This document shows, in pieces, positions 35,454 to 54,158 of a stretch of DNA of 64,000 nucleotides (its first letter is position 1; every line of letters begins with the position of its first letter). Below the pieces are notes generated by a model. The model searched no databases. It was not told the DNA's origin and was given only the letters and a program-made list of their open reading frames with translations. The stretch lies in contig NZ_CP010836.1 of assembly GCF_000935025.1 (NCBI RefSeq), positions 4,697,001 through 4,761,000 of the forward strand, read 5' to 3'. The DNA comes from Sphingomonas hengshuiensis. GTDB lineage: Bacteria; Pseudomonadota; Alphaproteobacteria; Sphingomonadales; Sphingomonadaceae. The translations under genes and the position numbers were made by a program.

Positions 35454-35482
35454 TTGCCTGACAAGAAATGATGATCTATCAA
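35454..35482 (+). promoter_or_regulatory. predicted promoter of the DUF3237-hydrolase operon
   Basis: TTGCCT (35454-35459), 17 bases, then TATCAA (35477-35482) resembles a sigma-70-type promoter in front of 35521. The -10 box lies within operator A, so regulator binding there would block polymerase. Confidence 0.45.
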
Positions 35483-35483
35483 C
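35470..35483. promoter_or_regulatory. predicted MarR-type operator A
   Basis: GATGATCTATCAAC is the reverse complement of GTTGATAGATCATC and matches the palindrome found at three other promoter regions of the island. It ends 37 bases before the GTG of the DUF3237 gene. Confidence 0.6.
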
Positions 35484-35520
35484 AACTCCTCGCCCTGGAG
35501 GCGGTTGTAAGAGAGGTACC

Positions 35521-36003
35521 GTGCCCGAAAGCCACCCCTTTGCTCCCGTGCTGGAGCATGCGTTCACGATTTCCATCGACCTGACCGGCATCAAATGGGT
35601 GACACCCAGCACGATGGGGGCATCGCGCGCGGCGATCTATGCCGCCCAGGGAACGGTGACCGGTCCCCTCCTCAACGGAAAGGTCGTGCCGATGTCGGGC
35701 GGCGACTTCCCGCTGCTACGTCCCGACGGGGTGATCGATTTCGACGCGCGCTACCTGCTGGAGGCGGATGACGGCGCGATCATCTATATGCAGAATCGCG
35801 GCTATCGCTGGCCGCGCACGCCCGAGATCGGCGAGCGGATGGCGCGCAACGAACCGGTGTCGCACGACGATTATTATATGCGCGTGAGCCCCAAATTCGA
35901 CGCGCCCGTCGGCCCGCACGAATGGATGGCCAAGCACGTCTTCCTGGGCGTCGCGGAGAAGATCCCGGGGGCGAACCGCATCCATTATTTCGTGGCGCGC
36001 TGA
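35521..36003 (+). CDS. DUF3237 family protein
   Basis: The 160-residue protein fits the DUF3237/UPF0311 family by its length and by segments such as GPLLNGKVVPMSGGDFPLLR, FDARYLLEADDGAIIYMQNR and VFLGVAEKIPG. The family forms a small beta barrel of unknown activity and turns up in catabolic clusters. The start is GTG at 35521 after GAGAGG. It is the first gene of a two-gene unit with the S15 hydrolase (one base between stop and ATG). Operator A lies over its predicted promoter. Confidence 0.85.
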   Translation: MPESHPFAPVLEHAFTISIDLTGIKWVTPSTMGASRAAIYAAQGTVTGPLLNGKVVPMSGGDFPLLRPDGVIDFDARYLLEADDGAIIYMQNRGYRWPRTPEIGERMARNEPVSHDDYYMRVSPKFDAPVGPHEWMAKHVFLGVAEKIPGANRIHYFVAR

Positions 36004-36004
36004 C

Positions 36005-37678
36005 ATGGCCGACCCGGACGCGTTCAGCCTGATCCTGCGGCCGGGAGTCGATCCCCACACCGCGCCGTTCAAGCCGCCGCTGCCGCCATTGGGGCATGCC
36101 GTGCGCCGCGAGGCGGGGCTGGTGATCGATCGCAACCTGCCGATCCGGCTGAGCGACGGCGTGACGATCTATTGCGACCTGTATCGCCCGGACGGCCCGG
36201 CGGGCGAAGCCGATCTGCCGGTGCTGCTGTCCTGGGGCCCCTATGGCAAGCACGGGCAGAGCAACCAGGTCTTCTGGCCGCTATCGGGGGTCAACCCCGA
36301 ATGGCTGTCGCCGCTGACTCCGTTCGAGGGCCCCGACCCCGTGCAATGGGGCGCAAAGGGCTATGCCGTCGCGATCGTCGATCCGCGCGGCGCCTGGCTT
36401 TCCGAGGGCGTTTTCCGGCACAATGGCATCGGCGAGGCACAGGATTGCGCCGAGACGATCGCCTGGCTCGCCGACCAGCCCTGGTCGAACGGCAAGGTCG
36501 GGATGACCGGCGTTTCGTACCTCGCCTGCATCCAGTTCTGGGCAGCGGCGCAGCGCCCGCCCGCGCTGGCGGCGATCAATCCGTGGGAAGGCTTTACCGA
36601 CTGGTATCGCGAATTCGCCTATCATGGCGGGATTCCCGAGACCGGCTTCGTCCCGCGCGCGTCGGACACGATCCGCTTTTCGGTGGGGCAGACCGAGGAC
36701 ACCTGGGCGAATGTCCAGGCGCATCCGCTGATCGACGCCTATTGGCGTTCGAAGGACATTGATTTCGGCGCGATCGACGTGCCCGCTTATGTCGTCGCGA
36801 GCTGGTCCGACCAGGGGCTGCACACCCGCGGCACGCTGGAGGCCTATAAGCGCATCGGCAGCCGCCAGAAATGGCTCGAGGTCCATGGCCAGAAGAAATG
36901 GGCGCACTATTACCACCCCGAAAGCCAGGCGCGGCGCGAGGCGTTTTTCGACCATTTCCTGAAAAGTCGCGAAACCAGCGTCGCCGCATGGCCACCGGTG
37001 CAGATCGAAGTGCGCGACCGCGCCGGGCTCGCCACGCTGCGCGACGAGGCGGAGTGGCCGATCGCGCGGACTGTCCCGACGCCGCTATGGCTGGACCTCG
37101 ATCAAGGCGCCCTGACGCAGGCGGCCCCCGACGCGGCGCAACGCCTCGCTTATGACGCCCAGACGGGGGGCGCAGTGTTCGACATCCGCTTCGAAGCCGA
37201 GACCGAGATCAGCGGCCACGCGATGCTGCGCCTCTGGGTGGAGGCAGAGGGCGCCGACGATGCGGATCTCTTCGTCGCGCTGCAAAAGCTCGATGCGGCG
37301 GGCGCGCCCGTCGGCATGACCTTCTATGCGTTTTTCGAGGACGGTCCCGTCGCGCTCGGATGGCTGCGCGCCAGCCACCGCGAGACCGATCCCGAGCGGA
37401 GCACGCTGCTCCAACCCTTCCACCCCCATCTGCGCGAACAGCCGCTGGAACCGGGCAGCGCAGTGCCGCTCGACATCGAGTTCTGGCCCGGCGCGACGCG
37501 GTTCGAAGCCGGGGAATCGCTGCGGCTGGTGATCCAGGGGCGCGACATCTACGCGGACGGCGCGCCCAATTTGCCCTTCGCGCGACACCAGGACACCCGC
37601 AACCAGGGCACGCACGTCCTGCACAGCGGTCCGGGTCGCGAATCGCACCTGCTGCTGCCGGTAATCCCGCCCCGATAA
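36005..37678 (+). CDS. CocE/NonD (peptidase S15) family hydrolase
   Basis: This 557-residue enzyme has the X-Pro dipeptidyl-peptidase/cocaine-esterase fold. The serine nucleophile is in GMTGVSYLACIQFW, the acid probably in VVASWSDQGLH and the histidine in VHGQKKWAHYYH. After about residue 335 a jelly-roll domain typical of the C-terminal part follows (FEAETEISGHAMLRLWVEAE). There is no signal peptide, so it is cytoplasmic. Homologues cleave esters such as cocaine or glutaryl amides; the substrate here is unknown. It is coupled to the DUF3237 gene and lies in the MarR-controlled island. Confidence 0.9.
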   Translation: MADPDAFSLILRPGVDPHTAPFKPPLPPLGHAVRREAGLVIDRNLPIRLSDGVTIYCDLYRPDGPAGEADLPVLLSWGPYGKHGQSNQVFWPLSGVNPEWLSPLTPFEGPDPVQWGAKGYAVAIVDPRGAWLSEGVFRHNGIGEAQDCAETIAWLADQPWSNGKVGMTGVSYLACIQFWAAAQRPPALAAINPWEGFTDWYREFAYHGGIPETGFVPRASDTIRFSVGQTEDTWANVQAHPLIDAYWRSKDIDFGAIDVPAYVVASWSDQGLHTRGTLEAYKRIGSRQKWLEVHGQKKWAHYYHPESQARREAFFDHFLKSRETSVAAWPPVQIEVRDRAGLATLRDEAEWPIARTVPTPLWLDLDQGALTQAAPDAAQRLAYDAQTGGAVFDIRFEAETEISGHAMLRLWVEAEGADDADLFVALQKLDAAGAPVGMTFYAFFEDGPVALGWLRASHRETDPERSTLLQPFHPHLREQPLEPGSAVPLDIEFWPGATRFEAGESLRLVIQGRDIYADGAPNLPFARHQDTRNQGTHVLHSGPGRESHLLLPVIPPR

Positions 37679-37717
37679 GGCGGACCGGGACGCCACCCGG
37701 TCTACCCCAAAAGAAAC

Positions 37718-37731
37718 ATTGATAAATCATC
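37718..37731. promoter_or_regulatory. predicted MarR-type operator B
   Basis: ATTGATAAATCATC matches the GTTGATARRTCAAC consensus at 11 of 14 positions. It lies 63 bases upstream of the MFS transporter start. The right half is identical to the right half of operator A read in reverse complement. Confidence 0.5.
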
Positions 37732-37794
37732 ATTCCTGCTGCACACCCCGGCGCAGCACCGGGGCAAGCCGGCGCGCATCGAGAGGATCGGGCT

Positions 37795-39180
37795 TTGCAG
37801 AATGAAGACGAGCGGCTGCTGTCGGCGGGCTATGGGCGGATGTTCATCGCGATGTCGTTCCTGGTCGCGGTGTTCAACTTCGCCGATCGCGCGGTACTCG
37901 CGGTGCTCGCGCAGCCGATCAAGCGCGACCTCGGGCTGAGCGACTTCCAGCTCGGCATCCTCCAGGGCGTCGCCTTCGCCTTTCTCTATGCGATCCTGGG
38001 GCTCCCGATCGGCCGGCTGGCCGAGCGCATCTCGCGCGTGAACATCATTGCCGCCTCGGTGATCTTCTGGTCGGTGATGACCGCGGCGTGCGGGATGATC
38101 GGCAATTTCACCCAGCTTCTGTTGTGCCGCGTCGGCGTGGGCATGGGCGAGGCGGGTGCGCAGCCGGCCACCTCCTCGCTGGTCAGCGACCATTTCCCGC
38201 GCGAGAAGCGCGCATCGGTGATGTCGCTGATCTTCCTCGGCTCGCCTGCGGGCGCGTTCCTGGGCGCGACGGTCGGCGGCTGGGTCGCGGCGCATTGGGG
38301 CTGGCGGATGGCGTTCTTCGCACTGGGTATTCCGGGCATCCTGGTCGGCCTGCTGGTGCTGTTGCTGCTGCGCGAACCGCGCCGGGGCCTGGCCGACAAT
38401 GCCCCGCGCGAACCGACGCCGCCGCCCAATTTCAAGGCGTTCCTGCGCGTGGTCGGGCGCAAGCGCGGGCTGTTCTTCGTGATCCTGGGCGGGTCGATGG
38501 CGGGTTTCGGCATGACCGCGATCTCGCAATTCCTGGCGATCTATCTCGCGCGGATGTACGATCTGCCGGTCCAGCAGGCGGGGTCGCTCTACGGCACGAT
38601 TTCGGCGATCGCGCTGACCACCGGGCTCGTCTGCGGGTCGTTCGGCACCGACTGGCTGTCGCGTCGCGGCGATCGGCGCTGGCCCGCCTGGGGCGCCGCG
38701 ATCGGGCTGGCCATCGCGCCGTTCCTCTATTGGATCGCGTTCAACACCCAATCCGTCCTGTGGGGATCGGTGATGCTGTGCATCTCCGGGGCCGCGCTGC
38801 TGCTCTTCTACGGCCCGACTTTGGGCATGATCCAGAACCTGCTCGAGCCGCGGATGCGCGCCACCGGCGCGGCGCTGTTCGCGATCCTCTACACGATCTT
38901 CGGCTCCGGGCTGGGGCCGACCGCGGTCGGCTGGCTGAGCGACCATTTCGCCAGCGGGGTGTTCACCGGTGGCGACTATCTGGCGCAATGCCATGGCGGC
39001 AAGGCGGCGATCGCCGCTGCCAAGGGGGCGCTGGACCCGTGCGCGATTGCCGCCACCCATGGCATCAAGACCGCGCTGATGGCGGCGGTGTGCATCTTCT
39101 TCGCCGCATCGCTCTGCTATCTGATCGCGGCGCGCACGCTGCGTGAGGACTTCTATATCGTCGGCGAGGAGAAGGCGTGA
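37795..39180 (+). CDS. MFS transporter, spinster-like
   Basis: The 461-residue permease has twelve hydrophobic segments and MFS motif A-like LPIGRLAERISR. A periplasmic or cytosolic insert with cysteines (QCHGGKAAIAAAKGALDPC) lies before the last helix; this is typical of the spinster-like group common in sphingomonads, often found in catabolic clusters. The start is TTG at 37795 behind GAGAGGA. It is followed by two SnoaL-like genes in overlapping frames, so all three form one unit under operator B. It probably imports the aromatic or ester substrate across the inner membrane. Confidence 0.9.
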   Translation: MQNEDERLLSAGYGRMFIAMSFLVAVFNFADRAVLAVLAQPIKRDLGLSDFQLGILQGVAFAFLYAILGLPIGRLAERISRVNIIAASVIFWSVMTAACGMIGNFTQLLLCRVGVGMGEAGAQPATSSLVSDHFPREKRASVMSLIFLGSPAGAFLGATVGGWVAAHWGWRMAFFALGIPGILVGLLVLLLLREPRRGLADNAPREPTPPPNFKAFLRVVGRKRGLFFVILGGSMAGFGMTAISQFLAIYLARMYDLPVQQAGSLYGTISAIALTTGLVCGSFGTDWLSRRGDRRWPAWGAAIGLAIAPFLYWIAFNTQSVLWGSVMLCISGAALLLFYGPTLGMIQNLLEPRMRATGAALFAILYTIFGSGLGPTAVGWLSDHFASGVFTGGDYLAQCHGGKAAIAAAKGALDPCAIAATHGIKTALMAAVCIFFAASLCYLIAARTLREDFYIVGEEKA

Positions 39181-39587
39181 CCCCGCCGGGCACGCGAGAG
39201 TGGTTCGAAGCCTATCTCGCCGCGTTCAACCGCGGCGATTTTCCGGGGTTCGGCGCCTATTATGCCGATGACGTGGCGTTCCACGGCCAGGCGGCGCAGC
39301 TGACCGGGCGCGCGGCAGTGCTCGATTTCTACACGCGGGTCCGCTCGTATCTCGACGAACAGCTGGAACTGCTCAGCTTCGTCGCGGCGCCCGGCGGCGA
39401 CCGGATCGTCGCCGAGGTCCGCACGACGCTGACCGCGCACCGCGACTGGCCGGACATGCCCACCGGCGCGATGCAGGTGGGGGACATGCGGCAAAGCGTG
39501 TCCTTTATTTTCTACGACATCGCAGACGGGCACTTCACCCGCATCCGCTCGGCGCGCTTCTCGCCCCAGCCGGGTGCCCGCGCATGA
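39177..39587 (+). CDS. SnoaL-like NTF2-fold protein (1)
   Basis: The 136-residue protein has the NTF2-like pattern WFEAYLAAFNRGDFPGFGAYYADDVAFHG. SnoaL-type members include polyketide cyclases, isomerases and small dehydratases, and the fold is shared with Rieske-oxygenase beta subunits. No specific function can be assigned. Start GTG overlaps the transporter stop (GTGA), and its own TGA overlaps the next ATG (ATGA). It is paralogous to the next gene, with modest identity. Confidence 0.82.
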   Translation: MTPPGTREWFEAYLAAFNRGDFPGFGAYYADDVAFHGQAAQLTGRAAVLDFYTRVRSYLDEQLELLSFVAAPGGDRIVAEVRTTLTAHRDWPDMPTGAMQVGDMRQSVSFIFYDIADGHFTRIRSARFSPQPGARA

Positions 39588-39979
39588 GCCCGGAGGACCG
39601 TTTCCGCGCCTATATGGCTGCGTTCAACACGAGCGACTGGGACGCGCTGCGCCGCCATTACGCGCCGGATGTCCGGCTGGTGATCGGCAACGGCACCGAA
39701 TTGGTCGGGTGCGACGCGATCGTCGATTTCTACGGCAAGGTGAAGCAGCAGACGCGCCGGACGATCGAGATCGTCCAGTGTTTCGCCGACGGGGCGACGC
39801 TGGCGGCGGAACTGGAATCCGAATTTCTCGCGCTGGAGGACGCCCCCGATTTCGCGGTGCGCCCGATGGCAAAGGGCGACCGCTATTACCTCAACAGCTT
39901 CGTCCTCTACGACAGCGACGGCGAGCGCTACACCCGCATCCGCGCGGCAGTGTTCCGCCGCGAGTTCCGCCCCGTCTGA
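39584..39979 (+). CDS. SnoaL-like NTF2-fold protein (2)
   Basis: This 131-residue NTF2-fold protein resembles its upstream neighbour (YMAAFNTSDWDALRRHYAPDV near the start, RYTRIRAAVFRREFRPV at the end). The two might form a heteromer or act on successive intermediates; that is inference. It ends 4 bases before the convergent tannase-like gene, with no room for a conventional terminator. Confidence 0.82.
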   Translation: MSPEDRFRAYMAAFNTSDWDALRRHYAPDVRLVIGNGTELVGCDAIVDFYGKVKQQTRRTIEIVQCFADGATLAAELESEFLALEDAPDFAVRPMAKGDRYYLNSFVLYDSDGERYTRIRAAVFRREFRPV

Positions 39980-39983
39980 CCGC

Positions 39984-41639
39984 TCAGCCCAGCGGGGCCA
40001 GAACCCGGCGCTTCTTCGATACCGCGCGCGAGCCGGGCCAGTCGACGCCATCCTCGGGCGCGACCTTCACCGGCTGCGGCGCGAACGAAGCGGCCGCATT
40101 GACGTCCCCGCCCAGATAGCGCGTCCGCGTCGGATAGGCATAAAGCGGGCGCCGCCGGATCGCACCGTCGGCGAGCGTCGCGCTGGCCTCCACGGCATCG
40201 GGTGCCTGCCCCTGCTCGACCCAGTTGACCACCGCGCCCAGGAAATCCTGATCATAGGCGATATAGCCCCCCGCGCAGTGATAGCCGCCCGGCACCAGGA
40301 ACATCCGCGCGAAAGCGCGCGTCGCCGCCATCCCGCCCATTCGGTCGCGCACCGCCTGATAATAATCGAGCATGCCGTAAATGCCCGCCGCATTGTCCGC
40401 CGCGCCCTGCCACAGCAACAACTTGCCGCCGCGGGTCCGGAACGCCGTCATGTCGGGGTCGGTCGAGTCATAGGGCTGCCCCGCCGTGAGCAACTGCGCC
40501 AGGCTCTCGCGCGAGAAGCGCCAGTCGCGCCAGCCAAAGCCCGCAGGCATCGCGCCGGGGAAGAGCAGATATTTGAGGAATGCCTCCGCCGCGAACTTGC
40601 CCGTCTGCGTCGGCGCACCGCGGCCGACCCAGCCCAGCTCGGCGCCAAAGGGTGCGCCGCCGGGGAACAGCGCATTGCCCTGCGCATCGCTCGGCCCGCG
40701 ATAATAAGCGCGCGCGGCGGCAACCTGCGCCGCGCTCAGGCAATCGGAATCCGTCGCCGCCCGGCACAACAGCTTGGCCGGATCGAAACCGCACGCGCGC
40801 GGATCGTCGATCTGGTCATCGGCGATCCCGTCCAGCCGGTCGCACGCCTTTAGCACGGCCTTGTGGAGCAGTTGCACTGCCCCCTCGGTGAAGATTTCCT
40901 GCCCGTCCGCCGCGATGCCGTGCTGCGCCTCCCACAGGAACAGCTGCATCGCGGCGGGCATCGCGACCGACGATCCCGCGACGATGCCGTCGAAATCGCC
41001 CGGATAGCGCTGCGCCTCCATCAGCGCCTCGCGCCCGCCGCCTGAGCATCCGGCGAAATAGCTCGTCTCGGGCGCCGCGCCATAGAACGCAGCGATCAGC
41101 GCCTTGGACGCCACCGCGACCGCATGCGTCGCCTTGTGCGCGAATTGCGCGCGCAGCTCGGGATCGGCGACCGCCCAGGTCCCGTCGCCAATCCCCGCGC
41201 TGTGATGCCCGCCATTGTTGAACGCGACGGCAAAGGCGCCGCTATAAGCATGGGCATTGCTGCATTTGGGGGTGATCGAATCGCCGATCACGCCGCACAT
41301 CCCGCCGCACCCGCCCTGCAGGAATCGCCCGGTATAACCGGTCAGCGGCAGCCGCAGCTCGAACTCGGTTTGCGGGCTGGTATAGCCCTTGACCAGGCAG
41401 AAGCCGGCGCGGTCCCCCGTCGCCGGCTCTTCGACCGCCGAGCGCAGCCGGAATGCGATCTCGCCCGCCTCGCGCGCAGGCTGGCGCATCAAATCGGTAC
41501 AGGCGATGGCGGGGGCGACGACCGGCCTGGCGGGAAGCGCGATCAGTTGCGCCGGGGAAGGTGCCGCCACCACCGGCAGCGCGCACAGGGCCAGCGCGAC
41601 GACGATCACCCGCGCCAGAATGTGTAGCGCCTTACGCAT
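39984..41639 (-). CDS. tannase/feruloyl esterase family hydrolase, secreted
   Basis: The 551-residue protein has a signal peptide (MRKALHILARVIVVALALCA...VVAA) and belongs to the tannase/feruloyl esterase family. The nucleophile is in FAGCSGGGREALM and the histidine in GGYHCAGGY; the cysteines beside both residues form the family's CS-D-HC disulfide at the active site. More cysteine pairs (GGCGGMCGV, CDRLDG, CGFDPAKLLC) match the lid domain. Members cleave gallate, ferulate or terephthalate-type esters, so a periplasmic or outer-membrane role in freeing aromatic acids is likely. Its ATG overlaps the carboxylesterase stop by eight bases. Confidence 0.92.
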   Translation of the reverse strand: MRKALHILARVIVVALALCALPVVAAPSPAQLIALPARPVVAPAIACTDLMRQPAREAGEIAFRLRSAVEEPATGDRAGFCLVKGYTSPQTEFELRLPLTGYTGRFLQGGCGGMCGVIGDSITPKCSNAHAYSGAFAVAFNNGGHHSAGIGDGTWAVADPELRAQFAHKATHAVAVASKALIAAFYGAAPETSYFAGCSGGGREALMEAQRYPGDFDGIVAGSSVAMPAAMQLFLWEAQHGIAADGQEIFTEGAVQLLHKAVLKACDRLDGIADDQIDDPRACGFDPAKLLCRAATDSDCLSAAQVAAARAYYRGPSDAQGNALFPGGAPFGAELGWVGRGAPTQTGKFAAEAFLKYLLFPGAMPAGFGWRDWRFSRESLAQLLTAGQPYDSTDPDMTAFRTRGGKLLLWQGAADNAAGIYGMLDYYQAVRDRMGGMAATRAFARMFLVPGGYHCAGGYIAYDQDFLGAVVNWVEQGQAPDAVEASATLADGAIRRRPLYAYPTRTRYLGGDVNAAASFAPQPVKVAPEDGVDWPGSRAVSKKRRVLAPLG

Positions 41640-43203
41640 GCGCTGCCACCAGCGCCTGCTCGGCACCCAACGGATCGTCGCGCACCGAACAGGGCGAATC
41701 GAAGATCATCGTCGCGCGGGCGGGCGCGGCATAAGCGGGCCAATCGGGCAGCCCCGCGACATTGGGGTTGCCGGTGCGTGCAAAGGTCGCCCAGCGCCGG
41801 CTCATGATAGCGGCGAGCGCCTGTGCCTCCGCAGCGCGCGGGGCGATTCCGGGCGCCGCCGCGACGGTATCGAACACCATCGGCAGCTCGACGCCATGAT
41901 GGCTGCGCAGCCTGCCGCCATCGACCGGCGAGCGCCAGTCGACCAGATAGCCATAGGCCAGCGCCGCGCCCATCGCGCCGCGCTTCTCCAGCACGATGCG
42001 CGCGTTGCGGCCCATCCCCGCCTCGGTCGTGATCGCGAAATACAGGTCGCTCGGCGAGGCGCCGGGCCGCAGCCGGCGGAACCCGTCGATCATCGGCGCG
42101 GGATCGCGCACCTTGCCCGCCAGCGCGCCCGGCAGCCCCGCCCAATCGAGCGCAAAGGCGCCGGGCGGCGGGAACAACACAGTGGTCTCGGTCGCGGTAT
42201 GGCCGACCAGCATCGGCAGATCGGGCCGGATCGGCGGCGCATCGGGCGCGAAGGGGATATGCGGCAGCACCGTCCCGTCGGCGACGATTCCCGGCCCCAG
42301 CATTGGGTTGCCCTTGGTCACCTGCTGGAGCCCGGTCAGCAGCCGCGGCACGGGCACCGCCCGCAGCGCGTCGATATCGCCGCGCGCGATCCCCAGCGCC
42401 GCGAACAGCGCCAGCGTGATCCGCATGCCCTCATCGGGGGCGACGCCATAGGTGCCGAACCCGCTCTGAAGCGCGGCGCGGTGGAACAGCCCCTGCGCCG
42501 CCGGCATCGCCGCCAGCGATGCGACTTTCGATCCGCCGCCCGAATGGCCGAACACCATCACCGTATCGGGATCGCCCCCGAACGCCGCGATATTGTCGCG
42601 TACCCAAAGCAGCGCCGCCGCCACGTCGAGCTGGCCGGGATTGGCGACGGCCTTCCCGGCGGGCACGAGGTCGCCGAAATAGAGATAGCCAAGGGCGTTG
42701 AGCCGGTGGTTGAGCGATACGACAACGACATCGTTGCGCGCAGCCAGCCTCGCGCCCTCGGTAACCGGGTCCGCCCCCGACCCCACCGCAAAGCCGCCGC
42801 CATGGACCCAGACCATCACCGGGCGCCGGGCATCGCCGCCGGTCGCGGGGGTCCAGACATTGAGGACAAGGCAATCCTCGCTCTGCTCGCCCGAAGCGCC
42901 AAGCTGCGGGGCAATCGCCCCGTAGCGGGTGGCGTCGCGCACCCCGCTCCACGGTGCCGGGGGCTCGGGCGCAAGGAAGCGCCGTGCACCGCCGGTGGGG
43001 GCGCCATAGGGGATGCCGCGAAACACCTGGACGCCGTTCTCGCTGAGCCCGCGCACGCGCCCCGCACGGGTCTGCACCACGTCGCCCTCCTGCGCGAAGG
43101 CCGCACGCGGCGCCAGCAGCGCCATCGCACCGGCAGCCGCACCGCCGACGAAATGGCGCCGCGAGGGGGTGGCGCCCCGGCCCGAATATCCTCTTTCGGT
43201 CAT
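41632..43203 (-). CDS. type-B carboxylesterase with Tat-like signal
   Basis: The 523-residue protein starts with a twin-arginine-like signal (SRRHFVGGAAAGAMALLAPRAAFA). The type-B esterase features are EDCLVLNVWTP, HGGGFAVGSG and the nucleophile elbow VMVFGHSGGGSKVASL. The elbow is GHSGGG, whereas family members usually have GESAGG. The catalytic histidine is probably in SHHGVELPMVFD. It should be periplasmic. It is placed between the TonB receptor (37-base gap) and the tannase-like gene and so belongs to the same uptake-and-hydrolysis unit. Confidence 0.9.
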   Translation of the reverse strand: MTERGYSGRGATPSRRHFVGGAAAGAMALLAPRAAFAQEGDVVQTRAGRVRGLSENGVQVFRGIPYGAPTGGARRFLAPEPPAPWSGVRDATRYGAIAPQLGASGEQSEDCLVLNVWTPATGGDARRPVMVWVHGGGFAVGSGADPVTEGARLAARNDVVVVSLNHRLNALGYLYFGDLVPAGKAVANPGQLDVAAALLWVRDNIAAFGGDPDTVMVFGHSGGGSKVASLAAMPAAQGLFHRAALQSGFGTYGVAPDEGMRITLALFAALGIARGDIDALRAVPVPRLLTGLQQVTKGNPMLGPGIVADGTVLPHIPFAPDAPPIRPDLPMLVGHTATETTVLFPPPGAFALDWAGLPGALAGKVRDPAPMIDGFRRLRPGASPSDLYFAITTEAGMGRNARIVLEKRGAMGAALAYGYLVDWRSPVDGGRLRSHHGVELPMVFDTVAAAPGIAPRAAEAQALAAIMSRRWATFARTGNPNVAGLPDWPAYAAPARATMIFDSPCSVRDDPLGAEQALVAAHA

Positions 43204-43240
43204 AGCTGCCGCACCACGGCGCCCCCCTCTCGTCGACGGA

Positions 43241-46171
43241 TCAGAAGCTCGCGCGGATGCCCACGCGATAGCGGCGACCGATATTGTCGTAATAGACTGC
43301 GTTGTTGTTGCCGTTCCAATAGGGCGGCGGTGTCACGTTGAAGAGGTTGTAGACATTGCCGAACAGCTCGACCTTGTTCGCGGGCCGGTCGATGAGCTGG
43401 AAGGTCGCGCCGAGATTGGTGTAGAAACGCGACGGCACCCGATTGGTGTTGATGCTGTTCGCCAGGTAGATGCTGTAGCCTTCGTCCTCGGGCCCGACCA
43501 GCGTGGCGTCGATCTTGCCCTTCGAGATGTAGCGACCCTGAAGGTTGATCCCGACTCGCTCCCAGTCGAGCGAAACAATCCCGTCGACCACCCAGGACGG
43601 CACCCCGCTCAAGCCATTGTCGCCCGCGCGATTGATGCCGGGCAGCGCGCTGTTGGTGAAATCGATCGTGTGCGTGGTCAGCACGCGCAGGTCGAGCGCG
43701 CGATCGGCGCCGAGCGGGATGTTATACCCCGCTTCGAAATCGAGCCCGCGCACCTTCTGCTCGTTCAAATTGAGCTGGAGCACGGACACAGACTGGAGCA
43801 GCCCGCTGCTGTCGCGCGTGACCAGCGCACAGATCTCCGCCGAGTTGGTGCGGTTGCAGGTATCGACGATCACCTGCGCGCCCAGCGATGCGATCGCGTC
43901 CTTGATGATCACATTGTAATAATCGGCGGAGAAGCGCAGCCCGCGCAGCGCACCTTCGCCCTGAAGCGTCATGCCCGCGGTGAAGGTCTTCGCCTTTTCG
44001 GGGCGCAGGTTGATGTTGCCGCCGGTGAAGAGCTGCGCAAACACCTGAGTCGAGGTCTTGGTATCGGTCAGCGCCGCGAGGCCGCCGACCGGGGTGGTGA
44101 ACAATTCCGACGTGTTGGGCGCGCGGATGTCGCGCGACTGGGTCGCGCGCAGCAGCATCCACGAGAAGGGGCTGTAGGTCAGGCCGACTTTCCAGGTCGT
44201 CGCGTCGAAGGTGTTCTTGGTCGCGCCGCTGGTGTTGGTGTAGCGCGCCTGGCGCGCCGCGCCGTTGATGTCGAGCTTGGAGCCGAGCGGGCTGTCGCGA
44301 AGCAGCGGCACCGCGACTTCGGCATAGCCCTCGACGACCGACACTGTGCCCTGCGACGGAGTCTGGTTGAAGATGTAGAAGCCGTTGGCGGCGGAGATCG
44401 GATCGACCTGGATCTTCAGCCCGTTGTTGCGTCCCTCGACACCCGCCGCGACCGCGACCGGGCCGGCCCAGGTCTCGAACGGCTGGCCGCTGACGTTGAA
44501 CGCGCCCGAAGTCTGGGTGAATTCGCTGTCCTGCAACGTGGTGCCGAACGCATAGGCCTTTGCCGCTGCCGAGAAATTGCCCTGGCCGATGATGTTGAGC
44601 GCAACGCAGGCCGGGTCGTCATTGGCGGGATTGGCGTCCGCATTCACGCGGCAGACCGGGGTGCCATTGGGCCCCGTAACGGCGTCGACTGCCTTGGCAT
44701 AGCGCGCGGTGATACGGTTGTTGATCGTGACCTGGTTATAATCGGTGACGCCGTACTGGACATAGGCATCCCATTTCCAGCTTCCGCCCAGTTCGCCGCT
44801 GCCGCCTGCCAGAACGCGCATCGTGTCGCGCGTCGACACGCTGTCCATCGTGCCGAACTCGGTGCCGAGCTTGCCGAGCGTCAGCCCGACGATGCCGTTG
44901 GCGGCCATCGTGTCGCGCACCGAACTGGGCAGGAACGGGTTGTCGATCGAAATGACCGTGCCCGTGGTCGGATAGCCGGTGTCGCGGATTTCGGGCCCGC
45001 GCGTGCGGCCCTGAACATGGCCATAGCTCGCCTCGACAAAGGCCGTGATCGCCGGCGAGAATTCATATTCGAAATGGCCAAGCGCATTGTACCGCTCGAC
45101 CGGGATCGACAGCAGCGGATCGCCAAAGAACGCATTGAGCCCCGCGCCGGTCCCGCCCGCCTGGAACAGCGCGTTGGAATAGGTGCCATATTCGAACGCC
45201 GTCGTCTGGCCGTTGGGGGCGAATTGGAGCCCGCTGAGCACGCCGCCCTTGGCAGCGGTGCGCACCCCCGCCGCGTTGATCGTCGCGGTGATCAGCCCGC
45301 CCGGAGTCAGCGTACCGGTGCGCACATTATAGGTGATGTTGTGCGCAGGGCGCCCATCGGCACCCGGTACCCCGGTCAGGTCGGCGACTTCGTTGCTGCA
45401 GAAGGTGCGCGTGTAGCAGCCGCCGGTGCCTTCGTCCTTGTTATACTCGGCGCCGAACACGGCATGGCCGCGATCGTCGTTGAAGCTGGTGCCTGCCGCG
45501 AACTGGGCGAAATATTGCTTGCCGTCGCCGACTTCGGTCACGCCATAGCCGGCGGAGGCCTTGATCCCCTTGAGCTTGGTGTCGAGCAGGATGTTGATCA
45601 CCCCCGACACCGCGTCCGAACCATAGGCCGCCGACGCGCCGCCGGTGACGACTTCGGCGCGCTGGACCAGCAGCGTGGGGATCAGGTTCAAATCGATCGT
45701 GCCGGTAGAGGTGCTCGGCGGAAAGCGGCGGCTGTCGACCAGCACCAGCGTGCGCGACGCGCCCAGGCCGCGCAGGTCGGAGATGCGCGCGCCGGCATTG
45801 GCGGGGAAGATACCCTGGGTGCCGGGCGTGCTGGTGGGGCGGAACGAGGGAAGCTGTGCCAGCGCCTCGCCGATCGTCGGCGACGAGGTCTTCTCGATCA
45901 TGTCGACGCCCAGCACGGTGACCGGCGTCGGCGCAGTAAAGCCGCTGACCCCCAGCCGCGTACCGGTGACGACGATCTCGCGCGTCTCATCGCCGCTATC
46001 GGCTTGCGGGGCGACATCGGCGGGCGCCTCCGCCTGCTGGGCGGCCTCCGTTGCCGGAGTCGGCGCGGTTTGCGCCATCGCTTCCACCGAGAGCATCGCC
46101 CCCAGCGCAGTCGATCCCAGCGCCAGCAGGCGATAGGCAGTGGCGCGGGCAGTCTTGTGTCGATCAGCCAT
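43241..46171 (-). CDS. TonB-dependent receptor
   Basis: This 976-residue outer-membrane protein has a signal peptide ending near ALGAMLSVEAMAQ, an N-terminal acidic linker with TonB-box-like ETREIVVTGT, a plug domain (IGEALAQLPSFRPTSTPGTQ, VDSRRFPPST) and a 22-strand-type barrel ending with an aromatic residue (YRVGIRASF). It should import a substrate too large or scarce for porins. Its neighbours suggest an aromatic ester or glycoside rather than iron. The ATG at 46171 is chosen because it gives the signal peptide. It heads the receptor-carboxylesterase-tannase unit, under operator C shared with the MarR gene. Confidence 0.95.
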   Translation of the reverse strand: MADRHKTARATAYRLLALGSTALGAMLSVEAMAQTAPTPATEAAQQAEAPADVAPQADSGDETREIVVTGTRLGVSGFTAPTPVTVLGVDMIEKTSSPTIGEALAQLPSFRPTSTPGTQGIFPANAGARISDLRGLGASRTLVLVDSRRFPPSTSTGTIDLNLIPTLLVQRAEVVTGGASAAYGSDAVSGVINILLDTKLKGIKASAGYGVTEVGDGKQYFAQFAAGTSFNDDRGHAVFGAEYNKDEGTGGCYTRTFCSNEVADLTGVPGADGRPAHNITYNVRTGTLTPGGLITATINAAGVRTAAKGGVLSGLQFAPNGQTTAFEYGTYSNALFQAGGTGAGLNAFFGDPLLSIPVERYNALGHFEYEFSPAITAFVEASYGHVQGRTRGPEIRDTGYPTTGTVISIDNPFLPSSVRDTMAANGIVGLTLGKLGTEFGTMDSVSTRDTMRVLAGGSGELGGSWKWDAYVQYGVTDYNQVTINNRITARYAKAVDAVTGPNGTPVCRVNADANPANDDPACVALNIIGQGNFSAAAKAYAFGTTLQDSEFTQTSGAFNVSGQPFETWAGPVAVAAGVEGRNNGLKIQVDPISAANGFYIFNQTPSQGTVSVVEGYAEVAVPLLRDSPLGSKLDINGAARQARYTNTSGATKNTFDATTWKVGLTYSPFSWMLLRATQSRDIRAPNTSELFTTPVGGLAALTDTKTSTQVFAQLFTGGNINLRPEKAKTFTAGMTLQGEGALRGLRFSADYYNVIIKDAIASLGAQVIVDTCNRTNSAEICALVTRDSSGLLQSVSVLQLNLNEQKVRGLDFEAGYNIPLGADRALDLRVLTTHTIDFTNSALPGINRAGDNGLSGVPSWVVDGIVSLDWERVGINLQGRYISKGKIDATLVGPEDEGYSIYLANSINTNRVPSRFYTNLGATFQLIDRPANKVELFGNVYNLFNVTPPPYWNGNNNAVYYDNIGRRYRVGIRASF

Positions 46172-46349
46172 GAAATCTCTCCCTTTGCGTTTATGCTTCG
46201 GCGCTCTTCGGCGCCTTGCGTGACCATCGCGGGCTGTTGGCGGGGATACGCCCCCCCGCAACGCCGCGACACGCCGGACCTGCACCCCCACTATGAAACG
46301 GGACGGACAGAGCGGCGCTATGGATGGCAGGTTAGGCCATTACCCTTTT

Positions 46350-46377
46350 GTTGATTGTTCAATGTTGATAAGTCAAC
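46350..46377. promoter_or_regulatory. predicted MarR-type operators C1 and C2
   Basis: Two adjacent palindromes, GTTGATTGTTCAAT (46350-46363) and GTTGATAAGTCAAC (46364-46377), lie between the TonB receptor and MarR genes. The spacing of 14 bases start to start and the divergent position suggest control of both genes, including autoregulation. C2 matches the island consensus best. Confidence 0.6.
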
Positions 46378-46429
46378 TGCGAGGGATTCACAAGAGACAA
46401 ACGCGCCCTCGCGCGATAGGAGCGGGCAG

Positions 46430-46942: not shown

Positions 46943-46969
46943 CTCTGTTTCAGTGAAGCTGAAACAGGG

Positions 46970-47052: not shown

Positions 47053-47087
47053 ATTCAGCGAAGCTGAAAACGAGACTCACCCCCCGG

Positions 47088-48011
47088 TCAGCGGGCCACT
47101 GCCGCCTCAACGATCCGGACCAGATCGCTCAGCGTCTCGCATACCGGCGTCGGCACGCCCAGCCGGGCGCCTTCGCGCGCGATGGCGCCGTTGATCGACT
47201 CGATCTCGCTCGGGCGCCCCGCCTCGCGATCGTGCAGCATCGATGCCTTGTGCGCGCGGTGATCGCGCAGCGCCGCGTCGACGCTGGCAAGGATGCCTGG
47301 GGCATCGATCGCGATCCCCTGCGCCGCGGCGACCGCGACCGTCTCGCGCGCCACCGCTGCGGCGATCCGGCGGCCGGGCGGATTGTCGACCCCGGCATTG
47401 GGCACCTGGCACAGCATCCCGATCGCATTGAGCGCAGCGTTGAACGCGACCTTCTCCCACACCGCCGCCGCGATATCGGCGCGCTCGGTGACGGCGAACC
47501 CTGCGGCGCGCAGCAGGCTCGCGACTCGGCCCGCCTTGTCGTCGGCGTCGGGCGCCATCGCCCCGAGGGCGATCGACGCGAAGCCGTGCGATGCCACTGC
47601 GCACGGCCCGGTCAGGTCGGCGGGGATCAGCGCGGTGCCCATCACCACCCGGTCCGCGCCAAAACCCTCGGCCAGCAACTCGGCATTGCCGATGCCGTTC
47701 TGCAAGGTCAGCGCGATCGGGCGATGCGCGCGCAGATGCGCCACCGACGCGATCGCCGCCGCGCTGTGCATCCCCTTGGTGAATAGGACGACCAGATCGA
47801 CGGGCGCGCCGACGTCACCGGCCAGCGCCGCCGCCACGCGCACCGTGCGCGTGCCCCGGTCATCGGTGAGCGTGATCCCCGAAGCGGCGATCGCGGCGAG
47901 GCGATCCGCATCGACATCGATCACCGTCACGCGCGCGCCGGTCTCGGCGATCCGCGCCGCGAACAGGCTGCCCATCGCGCCCGCGCCCAGGATAGCTACG
48001 CTGCCGATCAT
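47088..48011 (-). CDS. ketopantoate reductase (ApbA/PanE) family dehydrogenase
   Basis: The 307-residue protein has the N-terminal Rossmann motif VAILGAGAMGSLFAARIAE and family catalytic residues: Lys in WEKVAFNAALNAIGML (with the following Asn) and Glu in SEIESINGAIAR. PanE itself makes pantoate. However, this family also contains D-mandelate and other D-2-hydroxyacid dehydrogenases, and the gene is the last in a unit with a benzoylformate-decarboxylase-like enzyme and a Rieske dioxygenase. An aromatic 2-hydroxyacid dehydrogenase is therefore at least as likely; this is inference. Its ATG overlaps the dioxygenase beta stop (ATGA). Confidence 0.85.
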   Translation of the reverse strand: MIGSVAILGAGAMGSLFAARIAETGARVTVIDVDADRLAAIAASGITLTDDRGTRTVRVAAALAGDVGAPVDLVVLFTKGMHSAAAIASVAHLRAHRPIALTLQNGIGNAELLAEGFGADRVVMGTALIPADLTGPCAVASHGFASIALGAMAPDADDKAGRVASLLRAAGFAVTERADIAAAVWEKVAFNAALNAIGMLCQVPNAGVDNPPGRRIAAAVARETVAVAAAQGIAIDAPGILASVDAALRDHRAHKASMLHDREAGRPSEIESINGAIAREGARLGVPTPVCETLSDLVRIVEAAVAR

Positions 48012-48502
48012 ATCGAATAGACGTCCAGAAGCGTCGGCACGACATCGTTGAGCAGCCGGATCACCTTGCGCGCGATCCGCCACTCGCCGCCGACGCGGAC
48101 CAGTTCATGCTCATACCGCCCGAAAAACGCATGCGTCCGCCCGGCGCGGACATCGACGAGGTGGACGATGAAGCAGCTCGACACGCTGATGCTGTCGGCG
48201 CTCTGGGCAATGATCGTCACGTTGCTGATCGCATGCATCACGCGCAGCCGCACTTTCGACGCGACCGACATGCCCGAGCGGATGCGCCGGACGCGATCCT
48301 CGAGATTGCTGCGCCCCTGATAATAGATCAGCGACAATTCGCGGTCGGGGTCCTCGGTCTGCTCGCTCTCGTTGCGCCAGGCGGGCATCCAGAACACGGT
48401 GTCGGGGGTGAACAGCGCGAGCCACGCGTCATAGTCGCCCTGGTCGAGCAGCAGCGCCTCGCGGAACAGCAGCGCCTCGGCTTCGCGGAGAAGGTCGGTC
48501 AT
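48008..48502 (-). CDS. aromatic ring-hydroxylating dioxygenase beta subunit
   Basis: The 164-residue NTF2-fold subunit matches the BenB/HcaF-type beta subunit: EALLLDQGDYDAWLALFTPD, YYQGRSNLEDRVRRIRSG and the C-terminal RKVIRLLNDVVPTLLDVYSI. The beta subunit is structural in the alpha3-beta3 oxygenase. ATG at 48502 overlaps the alpha-subunit stop, and its stop overlaps the reductase ATG, both as ATGA. The frame is open further upstream, but that is inside the alpha gene. Confidence 0.93.
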   Translation of the reverse strand: MTDLLREAEALLFREALLLDQGDYDAWLALFTPDTVFWMPAWRNESEQTEDPDRELSLIYYQGRSNLEDRVRRIRSGMSVASKVRLRVMHAISNVTIIAQSADSISVSSCFIVHLVDVRAGRTHAFFGRYEHELVRVGGEWRIARKVIRLLNDVVPTLLDVYSI

Positions 48503-49839
48503 GCCAGCACTCCCGCCATGCGCTGTGCCCATGCGCGGTAATAGCTGTGGAACAGGCTCTCGTCGCAGGTCTGGGCCTGTCCCAGCACGCTGCGTTCGGG
48601 ATGAAGGTCGATGCTGTCCGAATAGGCATTGCCGCCCGCGACCGACGCGGCGAGCCCGCGGGCATGGCCCTGCAGCCACGGGCGCTCCTGCGCCGCCATT
48701 CCCGCCTGGCATTCCTCATAGACCACGGTGTCGTCGGGGGTGGCCATGCCCGTGGGATTGAAGAAATCCTCATATTGCCGGATGCGCATCCGCCGCGCCT
48801 CGGCGCTCTCGCCGCGCGGGGCGATGCACCAGGTCTGCATCTCGGTCAGGTTATGCGCCACCGGGCGGATCACGCGAAGCTGGCTGGAGGCGTTCTCGGC
48901 GATCTGGAGGTTGGGGAAGATCGTCAGGTTGCGCATGTTGAACATCCAGTTGCGCCGCGCCACCCCGACCCGCTCGGCGACCGCGTCCGCGGTCTCGTAC
49001 AGCGGCAGCGCAGGCGTCACCGCCATCAGCCCCCAATTGAGGACATGGCCGTTGGCGAAGCTGAACGTGCCGCCGGTCGGCCCCTCGGCATCCTCCTTCC
49101 AGAAATCGCTGCCGCCCAGCGTCGACTGGACCACTTCGGCCTTCTGCTCGCGAGCCCGCGCGTCGAGGATGCGGATGTAGCTCGGGTGGGTCGAGGTGAA
49201 ATGATATTGGTCCGAGCAATTCTCCAACTGCATCTTCCAGTTCGCGGCATAGGTGAAGCGCACCGCCCCCGGCACCAGTTCGGCGCCCTCGGGGCTCTGG
49301 TCCGCCACCAGATCGAGCAGCTTGCGCGCCTCGCCGAGATGCTCGTCGAGGCTGGGCACATCGGGGTTGAGGCTGGCGAACAGGAAGCCGCGATACTCGC
49401 CGAAGCGCGGCAGGCGCGCGAGGTCGTGATCCTCGCGATCGAACCCCTCACCATAACAGCCGCCGCTCTTCCATTTGATGTTACGGTTCGCGCCCGCGCT
49501 GTCGAAGGTCCAGCTGTGATAGGGGCAGACATGCATCCGGGCATTGCCCGACAGCTGCTGCGCGATGCGCGCGCCCTTGTGCGGACAGGCGTTGACGAAG
49601 CCGCCCAGCACGCCCTCGCCCGAGCGGCTGACCAGGATCGGCACCCTCCCGATAAAGCCGGTGAAGAAATCATGCGGCTTCTCGGCCTGGCACGCCATGC
49701 CGACGAACACCCAGCCGCCCTCGAAAATCGCCTGCATCTCGAGCGCGAACAGGTCCGGGTCGCTGAACAGCGCGCGGTTGATGCGGAAGACCCCGTCGTC
49801 GGGGCGGTCGTCGATCAGGTCGGTGAGGCGATAGGCCAT
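48499..49839 (-). CDS. aromatic ring-hydroxylating dioxygenase alpha subunit (benzoate-dioxygenase-like)
   Basis: The 446-residue catalytic subunit has a Rieske centre (C85-x-H87 in ACPHKGAR and C105-x2-H108 in CPYHSWTF) and the mononuclear iron site D210-x2-H213-x4-H218 in ENCSDQYHFTSTH, with the C-terminal acidic ligand in RQYEDFFNPTGMATPDD. The spacing and flanks recall BenA/AntA-type benzoate or anthranilate dioxygenases more than naphthalene-type ones. No ferredoxin or reductase gene is in the window, so electrons must come from elsewhere. It is 23 bases downstream of the decarboxylase-like gene and coupled to the beta gene. Confidence 0.93.
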   Translation of the reverse strand: MAYRLTDLIDDRPDDGVFRINRALFSDPDLFALEMQAIFEGGWVFVGMACQAEKPHDFFTGFIGRVPILVSRSGEGVLGGFVNACPHKGARIAQQLSGNARMHVCPYHSWTFDSAGANRNIKWKSGGCYGEGFDREDHDLARLPRFGEYRGFLFASLNPDVPSLDEHLGEARKLLDLVADQSPEGAELVPGAVRFTYAANWKMQLENCSDQYHFTSTHPSYIRILDARAREQKAEVVQSTLGGSDFWKEDAEGPTGGTFSFANGHVLNWGLMAVTPALPLYETADAVAERVGVARRNWMFNMRNLTIFPNLQIAENASSQLRVIRPVAHNLTEMQTWCIAPRGESAEARRMRIRQYEDFFNPTGMATPDDTVVYEECQAGMAAQERPWLQGHARGLAASVAGGNAYSDSIDLHPERSVLGQAQTCDESLFHSYYRAWAQRMAGVLA

Positions 49840-49862
49840 CGGCGTTCCTTTCCTGCGTCGCG

Positions 49863-51431
49863 TCAATCGACGACGATTTCGACCAGCGTCGGCGTCGGCG
49901 TCGCGAACGACCAGGCCAGTGCCGCGTCGAGCGCTTCGGGGGTATCGGCGCGCCGCGCGGCCATGCCATGCCCGGCGGCGAGCGCGCAGAAATCGAGGCC
50001 CGACAGGTCGGTGCCCTCGACCTTGGTCAGCCCGAAATGCCGGCCGAAGGATTCGAGCGCCTCGTACCGGTGATTGACGATCACCAGCACGCTGAGCGGC
50101 AGGTTCAGGCGGCTGGCGGTGAACAGCGCCTGGATCGAATACATCGCCGACCCGTCGCCGATCAGCGCGATCACGCGCTCGCCGGGCCGCGCCAGCGCGA
50201 TCCCCACCGAAGCGGGCAGCGCATAGCCCAGCCCGCCGCTGGCGGTGGTGTAAAAGCCGTCGGCGCGTAGCATCGGCAGCAAGTCGTACATCGCGGCGCG
50301 GCTGGACGGCGCTTCCTCGACGATGACCGACTCGCGCGGGCGCAGCGCCGCGATCCGGTGCATCGCCAGACGGTCGATCATCCGGTCGCCATCGGGCGCG
50401 GCGACAGGATCGCGGGGGGCAGGCGCCGGGCGAACGCCGGGCGTGGCACGCGCCGCCAGCGTCTCCAGCGCGCTGCGGCTGTTCGCCAGGATTCCCCGCC
50501 CGCACGGTGCCCAGGACAGTACCGCCGGATTGTCGTCGACCAGCCACAGCGCCAGCCCCTCGGGAACATGCGGCCCCGGCGCCTCGGTATGGTAGAGGTT
50601 GAGCGGCCCGCCGACGACGAGCGCCAGATCGTGGCGGCCCAGTTGCGCGACGATGTCCTGCCGGCTCGCGCGCAGGAAGCCCGCAAAGCAGCGATGGTCC
50701 TCGGGAAAGGCGTTGCGACACGCAAAGGGCGCGGCATAGACGCGCGCGCTATGCGCCTCGGCGAAGCGGATTGCGGCGTCCCAGGCGCCATCGCGCGCTG
50801 CGCCAGCTCCCAGTATCAGCGCCGGACGCTCCGCCCCGGCGAGCGCCTGCGCGAGTTCGTCCAGCGCCGCCGGATCGCCGGGGTTCGCCGTCGTGATCGT
50901 GCGCGGCTCGATGGCCTCACCGGGCTGGTCCCAGTCATCGACCGGCACCGATACGAAGGTCGGGCCGAACGGCGGCGTCATCGCGATCTGGTGCGCGCGG
51001 GCGATGGCGCGCGGCACATCGGCGGCACGCGCGGGCTCGCATGCCCATTTGACGAAGGGGCGCGGGAATTCGGTCGCGCGCTCGGCATGGAGGAACGGCT
51101 CGAACGGCAGGATCGATCGCGCCTGCTGGCCGGCAGTCACGACTAGCGGCGCCTGGTTCTTGAACGCCGTGAAGATATTGCCCAGCGCATGCCCGACGCC
51201 CGCCGAGCTGTGCAGATTGACCAGCGCGGCGGTGCGCGTCGCCTGCGCATAGCCGTCCGCCATCGCGACGACGGTCGCTTCCTGGAGCCCCAGCACATAG
51301 TCGAAATCGGCCGGAAAATCGCGGAACATCGGCAGTTCGGTCGATCCCGGATTGCCGAAGACCCGCGTCATGCCGAGCCGACGCAGCAGCGCCAGCGTCG
51401 CGTCTCGCACCGTCGTCATCTGGGCTGGCAT
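49863..51431 (-). CDS. mdlC: benzoylformate-decarboxylase-like thiamine diphosphate enzyme
   Basis: The 522-residue protein matches benzoylformate decarboxylase at several positions: VFGNPGSTELPMF (Ser site), Glu51 in GLQEATVVAMADG for cofactor activation, His74 in VNLHSSAGVGHALGN, and the ThDP motif IGDGSAMYSIQALFTASRLN. In Pseudomonas the enzyme turns benzoylformate into benzaldehyde in the mandelate pathway. Related 2-oxoacid decarboxylases cannot be excluded, so the symbol is tentative. It heads the unit with the Rieske dioxygenase and the PanE-family gene. AAGGA precedes the ATG at 51431; operator D lies 70 bases upstream. Confidence 0.87.
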   Translation of the reverse strand: MPAQMTTVRDATLALLRRLGMTRVFGNPGSTELPMFRDFPADFDYVLGLQEATVVAMADGYAQATRTAALVNLHSSAGVGHALGNIFTAFKNQAPLVVTAGQQARSILPFEPFLHAERATEFPRPFVKWACEPARAADVPRAIARAHQIAMTPPFGPTFVSVPVDDWDQPGEAIEPRTITTANPGDPAALDELAQALAGAERPALILGAGAARDGAWDAAIRFAEAHSARVYAAPFACRNAFPEDHRCFAGFLRASRQDIVAQLGRHDLALVVGGPLNLYHTEAPGPHVPEGLALWLVDDNPAVLSWAPCGRGILANSRSALETLAARATPGVRPAPAPRDPVAAPDGDRMIDRLAMHRIAALRPRESVIVEEAPSSRAAMYDLLPMLRADGFYTTASGGLGYALPASVGIALARPGERVIALIGDGSAMYSIQALFTASRLNLPLSVLVIVNHRYEALESFGRHFGLTKVEGTDLSGLDFCALAAGHGMAARRADTPEALDAALAWSFATPTPTLVEIVVD

Positions 51432-51491
51432 CCTCTCGTCCTTCGCGACGGCTTGCTCCGGTACCCTGCGGCCCGAGCGCCGACGCTTCCC

Positions 51492-51519
51492 TTGATCATA
51501 GTTGATAGATCAACATAAT
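51492..51519 (+). promoter_or_regulatory. predicted promoter of the esterase gene
   Basis: TTGATC (51492-51497), 16 bases, then CATAAT (51514-51519) resembles a sigma-70-type promoter reading right towards 51604. Operator D fills the spacer, so binding would exclude RNA polymerase. Confidence 0.45.
51501..51514. promoter_or_regulatory. predicted MarR-type operator D
   Basis: GTTGATAGATCAAC has perfect six-base arms (GTTGAT/ATCAAC) around AG. It lies between the divergent decarboxylase-like gene (70 bases) and the esterase gene (90 bases), so one site can control both. Confidence 0.65.
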
Positions 51520-54143: not shown

Positions 54144-54158
54144 CCCCCCACCAGCGGA

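Follow-up and report, generated by a model that had tools for sequence, protein, structure and literature searches.

A candidate MarR operator in two catabolic islands of Sphingomonas hengshuiensis and its conservation among relatives

MarR repressors that act through palindromic operators are already known, and one of the closest described examples is CouR of Rhodococcus jostii RHA1, whose ligand is p-hydroxycinnamoyl-CoA and whose operator has a 5-bp spacer, according to the available portion of PMC4737184. The enzymes that concern us here recall those of pinoresinol and phenylcoumaran catabolism. In the accessible parts of PMC12607616, PMC12997858 and PMC11323797, the DUF3237 proteins PinX, PhcF and PhcG are described as decarboxylases (PinX by prediction from mutant data), and the NTF2-family proteins LdpA and PcfL as releasing formaldehyde from lignin dimers. 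In this study, we analyzed a marR gene and the palindromic boxes that surround it in a 64,000-nt stretch of the 5.23-Mb genome of Sphingomonas hengshuiensis (contig NZ_CP010836.1, positions 4,697,001 to 4,761,000), which is called the window throughout. The gene and its boxes lie in a block of about 17 kb, termed island A; positions elsewhere in the genome are given as contig coordinates (C1). The pattern RTTGA-N4-TCAAY is most probably the operator read by MarR repressors of a distinct clade, and the MarR encoded in the window would control island A via five such boxes.

Five boxes and the definition of the operator

A sequence-only reading of the window had proposed that one 14-bp palindrome, GTTGATARRTCAAC, recurs in four promoter regions and thereby covers six transcription units. 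Indeed, all five copies are present, and each of the six units (DUF3237-CocE; MFS-SnoaL-SnoaL; TonB receptor-carboxylesterase-tannase; marR; benzoylformate decarboxylase (BFD)-ring-hydroxylating dioxygenase (RHO) alpha-RHO beta-PanE; esterase) is preceded by boxes. In the following list, mismatches are counted against this 14-mer and the core is TTGA-N4-TCAA.

35470..35483, minus strand: MarR box 1, GTTGATAGATCATC on the minus strand (GATGATCTATCAAC); one mismatch, one core mismatch; before DUF3237-CocE
37718..37731, plus strand: MarR box 2, ATTGATAAATCATC; two mismatches, one core mismatch; before the MFS-SnoaL-SnoaL unit
46350..46363, plus strand: MarR box 3, GTTGATTGTTCAAT; three mismatches, exact core; between TonB receptor and marR
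46364..46377, plus strand: MarR box 4, GTTGATAAGTCAAC; no mismatch, exact core; adjoins box 3
51501..51514, plus strand: MarR box 5, GTTGATAGATCAAC; no mismatch, exact core; between the BFD and esterase units, within a -35/-10-like spacer

Box 1 ends 37 bp upstream of the predicted DUF3237 start, and the two adjacent copies upstream of marR place palindromic boxes at the regulator's own promoter. When up to three mismatches are allowed, the window holds 13 matches to the 14-mer, compared with a mean of 3.63 in shuffled sequences. The two promoter placements that had been suggested fared differently. Box 5 occupies the 16-nt spacer of a promoter-like pair (TTGATC and CATAAT, at 51492-51519), whereas a scan of 19 kb found no such pair at 35470, where the box had been thought to cover a -10 element. 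Even the pair at box 5 is weak evidence because the scan found three pairs per 19 kb versus 1.7 in shuffled sequences. Open reading frames (ORFs) were taken from our own simple caller, and some of its starts and "coding" labels are wrong; for example, both boxes of the marR promoter were labeled coding.

Among relatives, the ARR centre of GTTGATARRTCAAC is not kept, and therefore the 14-mer over-specifies the motif. Over 112 distinct intergenic boxes, purines make up 90% of the outer bases, and T accounts for 57% of the inner ones. The operator is better described as RTTGA-N4-TCAAY.

The choice of pattern matters for the rarity of the boxes in the genome. With two mismatches allowed, GTTGATARRTCAAC occurs at 10 forward and 7 reverse places (17), hardly above the 9 and 5 (14) of a reversed control. 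Thus, that count by itself does not set the site at 37718 apart, and this form was dropped as a genome search pattern. The same count is what could be said for the view that the boxes are AT-rich palindromes that arose by chance in the promoters of a genome rich in GC. That view is contradicted by the spacer specificity and the conservation in other genomes described below, and by the fact that none of 100 shuffles reaches the count in the window; we consider it extremely improbable. With one mismatch or none, GTTGATARRTCAAC is found at four places, three in island A and one in a second MarR island. The core TTGATNNNTCAW has 10 distinct places versus one for its control: five in island A, three beside a paralogous marR and two elsewhere in predicted ORFs (one near an uncertain start). 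For TTGANNNNTCAA the count is 11 versus four. The strict form RTTGANNNNTCAAY has seven places versus none for the control, namely window positions 46351, 46365 and 51502, and C1 positions 1277196, 1280876, 1281103 and 1291048. A genome-wide scan of this kind had been named as a check on the original proposal. It confines the strict form to MarR islands, but to two of them, and the idea that the box is private to island A was consequently rejected.

Conservation of the box and co-occurrence with the regulator

A scan built from 21 aligned relatives of the window MarR yielded 79 loci among the best 80 of 81 matches. These are mostly from sphingomonads but include Niveispirillum, Azospirillum, a Hyphomonadaceae bacterium and others, and most clade members carry the recognition helix DRAE[VI]SR. 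The sequence TTGA-N4-TCAA is present in 47 of 76 distinct marR upstream regions, whereas spacers of 0-3 and 5-11 give 0-2 occurrences each. This set took in one wrongly cut region without matches (L156), which is omitted where 75 regions are cited below. Intergenic copies over 78 loci (L084 omitted) follow the same rule, with 124 for spacer 4 versus 1-12 for any other spacer. The locus of the nearest relative (L080, MarR 84% identical) also has two adjacent boxes, set at the 14-bp step seen in the window; its second box carries one mismatch.

The boxes also recur before the same genes. Counting orthologues of at least 50% identity, requiring an exact box and including the second island of the window genome itself, we found boxes before 22 of 30 DUF3237 genes that lead their units, before both TonB genes of the island A type and 14 of 16 of the type found in the second island, before 5 of 8 MFS genes and 13 of 21 of a second MFS type, and before one of two BFD genes. 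CocE genes internal to operons have an exact box in 0 of 24 cases. These counts are not all independent, given that the second island of the window genome is among the loci and that a single intergenic region often lies between DUF3237 and marR.

As a control, we inspected MarR ORFs outside the clade, and the box lies upstream of none of 50. They were drawn from the best-scoring MarR-domain loci only, 60 in number, in the window genome and others (25 genomes of the family including its own), of which 52 had an ORF and four genes were counted twice. Since box counts over the whole family are confounded by base composition, genomes were compared within 12 genera. The mean number of RTTGANNNNTCAAY sites is 4.46 in the 24 genomes with a strong clade member (E <= 1e-43) versus 1.89 in the 66 without, a difference matched by none of 200,000 stratified permutations. 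For this test, G013 was omitted as the sole genome of its genus, and seven weak-match genomes (E 1e-28 to 1e-32) were counted as lacking the clade. Several genomes with no clade match, G023, G180 and G233 among them, have more than 20 RTTGANNNNTCAAY sites, which base composition or a regulator with a similar box could explain.

The regulator and a presumed target travel together as well. The MarR clade was found in 25 of 397 genomes and a close DUF3237 (E <= 1e-60) in 26, with both in 23; the choice of both cut-offs followed inspection of gaps in the hit lists, and kinship is not corrected for in the Fisher test applied here. We fetched 30 DUF3237 loci; an exact box lies within 400 bp in 13 of them, and that of the window has its one-mismatch box. 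In two of these 13, the nearest clade marR on the contig is 309 kb (G380) or 1.2 Mb (G102) away. Neither of two close DUF3237 copies from genomes that lack a clade match (G191, G034) has a box, nor does any of four distant homologues.

A number of observations weigh against the assignment of the box to this clade. Two of the five island A boxes (35470 and 37718) lack a core base. No exact box is present in 28 of 75 marR upstream regions, although 12 of these 28 have a one-mismatch box, compared with 0-4 for spacers 2, 3 and 5-8. Some leader genes are poorer in exact boxes (SnoaL 0/7, CocE 3/10, RPE65 4/11), while two of six internal DUF3237 genes do have a box. In genomes with a strong clade member, 10 of 23 close DUF3237 loci lack a box within 400 bp, including one in G164 at a distance of 123 kb from marR. 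An exact box is present in G117, whose clade match is only weak. Lastly, no exact box was found at the promoter of the paralogous regulator introduced below. For six clade marR genes without a box (L088, L093 and L095-L098), the possibility of a different operator was considered and rejected: by eye, the upstream sequence resembles an aldehyde-dehydrogenase-type frame, which runs into marR, and no operator is therefore expected there.

The clade marR genes and targets that lack an exact box would be natural if a regulator encoded elsewhere binds the box and MarR lies nearby by coincidence. Yet box counts and close DUF3237 genes track the MarR clade across genomes, and the box is at the promoters of 47 of 76 clade members but 0 of 50 other MarR ORFs, which makes such a regulator improbable. 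The proposal that the box is the operator of the MarR clade is therefore the one carried forward.

Under this proposal, the MarR encoded at 46430 would bind the five boxes and repress its own gene along with the five other units of island A. A MarR dimer would sit on the palindrome with one winged helix per TTGA half-site, and a dimer on the box at 51501, between the -35-like and -10-like hexamers, would block RNA polymerase. Boxes located between divergent genes would each serve two units. Repression relieved by a pathway metabolite, the logic originally suggested for the island, fits the MarR family: an aromatic substrate or pathway intermediate would lower the affinity for DNA and free MarR, as the available portions of the reports on CouR, DesR and Saro_0803 describe for those proteins. 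Physical binding, repression rather than activation, and release by a metabolite are thus what we infer from the arrangement of sites and genes.

A second island with a paralogous MarR

The remaining strict sites belong to island B (C1 1.271-1.291 Mb, loci L057 and L058), which carries a MarR paralogue (C1 1278390-1278884) 31-34% identical to the window MarR. This island encodes an RPE65 protein (lignostilbene-dioxygenase-like; PF03055, 3.5e-134), SnoaL-like proteins, a TonB receptor, MFS transporters, aldehyde dehydrogenases and a GMC oxidoreductase, as well as three DUF3237 matches, one of which is 61% identical to the DUF3237 protein of island A. Its boxes lie in the divergent gap between an aldehyde dehydrogenase and SnoaL, in the gap separating the MFS unit from the TonB unit, and ahead of a further aldehyde dehydrogenase gene. 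They nearly match those of island A (GTTGATAAGTCAAC in island A, ATTGATAAGTCAAC in island B). The helix DRAEVSR was found only in the two island regulators, judged over 41 MarR-domain places in the genome, 30 of them fetched and 24 with an ORF.

In a tree of 76 proteins, which omitted L104 (no ORF), L084, L139, L149 and L156, the window MarR falls in a group of 40 rows (support 100/98) and the paralogue in a group of 32 rows with weaker support (93/68). An exact box is upstream of marR in 26 of the 40 rows of the first group and in 21 of 31 rows of the second without the paralogue, which was itself labeled by the boxes of its island. The operator is thus probably older than the split of the two groups, and the code would predate the window MarR, with the paralogue in island B sitting beside the same box. 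Given their common helix, the two regulators likely recognize each other's sites at least in part, with cross-talk within one cell, and the two pathways may share one control code.

These findings divide the original claim of a single MarR regulon. A regulon under MarR has good support, and the palindrome behaves as an operator of the window MarR, with fixed spacing and the same targets elsewhere, but "single" is not supported because the paralogue in island B shares both the box and the recognition helix. How far the sharing goes is a separate matter. It may be that both paralogues read the boxes of both islands, in which case one cross-regulated network would exist and deletion of a single marR would have only a partial effect. 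This alternative overlaps with control of island A by the window MarR and changes only whose regulon it is. The helix that only these two regulators have among the MarR ORFs examined in the genome, the near identity of the boxes, their presence in both tree groups, and the box kept at DUF3237 genes far from any clade marR in some genomes all speak for it. On the other side, identity of only 31-34% means that wing contacts or affinity could differ, and the boxes cluster beside each regulator, as local control predicts. We rate full sharing as a possibility just short of even.

Control of island A by its own MarR could also be one instance of something wider. In this tentative picture, to which we would give slightly less than an even chance, sphingomonads, and some alphaproteobacteria beyond them, have a sparse regulon for the catabolism of lignin dimers and lignans that is run by an old MarR clade with a nearly invariant helix and a single operator code. 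Where a genome has two or more members, these would share sites, so that islands and distant single genes form one network whose regulators differ mainly in ligand.

Several arrangements seen along the way touch on the two islands. One locus (L082) holds two clade MarRs about 3 kb apart (9887-10483 and 13439-13996) together with DUF3237, CocE, RPE65 and TonB genes. It has three exact boxes plus a mismatched one, which makes it a natural case for shared operators. At L080 (100-2522), a gene 74% identical to an aldehyde dehydrogenase of island B directly precedes an MFS gene of the island A type (90%), a hint that both islands serve related pathways. Adjoining island B is a 328-residue ORF with two tandem MarR domains (L058 7871-8857; C1 1289871-1290857), to which at least 60 proteins of about 250-345 residues in other sequences are similar.

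Genes of island A and comparison with known systems

The proteins of island A and their best family assignments are as follows.

35521..36003, plus strand: DUF3237 protein (PinX/PhcF/PhcG decarboxylase family; family link from the available part of PMC12607616); PF11578, 1.4e-33
36005..37678, plus strand: CocE/NonD family hydrolase; TIGR00976, 230 bits (cut-off 66.3)
37795..39180, plus strand: MFS transporter; PF07690, 4.8e-52
39177..39587, plus strand: SnoaL/NTF2-like protein 1; PF12680, 4.2e-13
39584..39979, plus strand: SnoaL/NTF2-like protein 2; PF12680, 6.5e-12
39984..41666, minus strand: tannase/feruloyl esterase family protein; PF07519, 3.3e-96
41632..43203, minus strand: carboxylesterase; PF00135, 1.5e-84
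43241..46291, minus strand: TonB-dependent receptor (longest ORF; likelier start ATG 46171); PF00593, PF07715
46430..46942, plus strand: MarR regulator, recognition helix DRAEVSRA (alignment); PF12802, 41.7 bits (cut-off 27), PF01047, 36.4 bits (24.6)
47088..48083, minus strand: PanE/ApbA-type 2-ketoacid reductase; TIGR00745, 223.7 bits (cut-off 141.35)
48008..48502, minus strand: ring-hydroxylating dioxygenase beta subunit; PF00866, 1.5e-37
48499..49839, minus strand: ring-hydroxylating dioxygenase alpha subunit; PF00848, PF00355
49863..51431, minus strand: BFD; NF005485, 738.6 bits (cut-off 493)
51604..52620, plus strand: esterase, signal peptide likely (longest ORF from 51502); PF00756, 3.7e-24

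The window MarR exceeds the curated cut-offs for the MarR winged-helix domain (PF12802, PF01047) and falls under the NCBIfam cut-offs for HpaR (TIGR02337, 27.9 versus 121.2 bits) and BilQ (NF045593, 39.2 versus 125). It had been called the only regulator of the block, and no second one was seen among the scanned proteins of the block and its flanks, a scan that covered some but not every small ORF.

The DUF3237 and NTF2-like enzymes, joined in island B by the lignostilbene-dioxygenase-like protein, point to lignin-type dimers or lignans and their esters as the substrate class, a reading to which we give an even chance and which is less certain than the regulon. Going by family membership, the DUF3237 protein might remove a carboxylate first released by the CocE-type hydrolase. 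The presence of a tannase and a carboxylesterase suggests that the substrates are esterified, and the product of BFD acting on an arylglyoxylate would be an aldehyde.

On its left, island A directly follows a tRNA-Lys gene (window 35251-35326). Similarity within the genus extends over folK and this tRNA gene as far as the end of the tRNA, with the island right behind. No island A protein had a match at 11 relatives' loci within 1.5 kb on each side of that tRNA. In the nearest relative, L080, homologous genes lie beside a tRNA-Tyr gene (16075-16161). No direct repeat of the tRNA end (exact, at least 12 bp, plus strand) was found in the window and no integrase was seen among the scanned proteins; a simple tRNA-borne island is one possible reading. 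The right edge (window 52656-55658) holds genes for a glpK-like kinase and a glpD-like oxidoreductase, a pair that is adjacent in 11 relatives' loci; a second kinase copy, 83% identical, is at C1 344324.

We found no description of this clade, its operator or its regulon in the literature searched, which left out most subscription journals. A fixed operator provides a genome-scale handle, since one pattern flags candidate regulon members, some of them at a distance from the regulator. It can thereby lead to pathway enzymes not yet known, for instance the CocE hydrolase or those of the branch with BFD and the ring hydroxylase. It may also yield sensors for plant aromatics, and it lends itself to asking whether, and by what means, two pathways stay separate when MarR paralogues use one DNA code.

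Among characterized regulators, DesR of Sphingobium sp. SYK-6 is likewise a sphingomonad MarR repressor that is autoregulated and acts at inverted repeats in several catabolic promoters. However, its operator GTTTGTGTCACATAC differs from the box, and its effectors are vanillate and syringate (available portion of PMC6888825). Saro_0803 of Novosphingobium aromaticivorans, also a sphingomonad MarR, controls the gene for a stilbene-cleaving dioxygenase and is released by resveratrol, but the available part of PMC10046596 gives its operator as GCAATA-N6-TATTGC, and the window MarR scores 20.6 bits against the NF053777 cut-off of 200.

A similar gene content is found on plasmid pABRDHK22 of Novosphingobium sp. 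EMRT-2 (L077), where tannase, carboxylesterase, TonB, CocE and DUF3237 genes and a divergent marR (55% identical) occur together; no exact box and no match to the BFD, ring hydroxylase or esterase of island A were found in that stretch. The pin and phc clusters, as far as the accessible parts of PMC12607616, PMC12997858 and PMC11323797 describe them, combine DUF3237 decarboxylases, NTF2 formaldehyde lyases, GMC oxidases and lignostilbene dioxygenases, and these texts in their available form make no mention of MarR. The same families occur across islands A and B: DUF3237 matches are present in both, whereas RPE65 was found once in island B and not among the scanned proteins of island A. Unlike the pin and phc clusters, island A adds esterases, BFD and a ring hydroxylase.

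The regulatory arrangement resembles that of CouR, which, in the portion of PMC4737184 available, is a MarR over several aromatic-catabolic units and its own gene, with the inverted-repeat half-sites (A)TTGA and TCAA(T). The difference lies in the spacer: the CouR/FerC type has ATTGA-N5-TCAAT, whereas the marR upstream regions of the clade described here have spacer 4 in 47 of 76 cases and spacer 5 in one.

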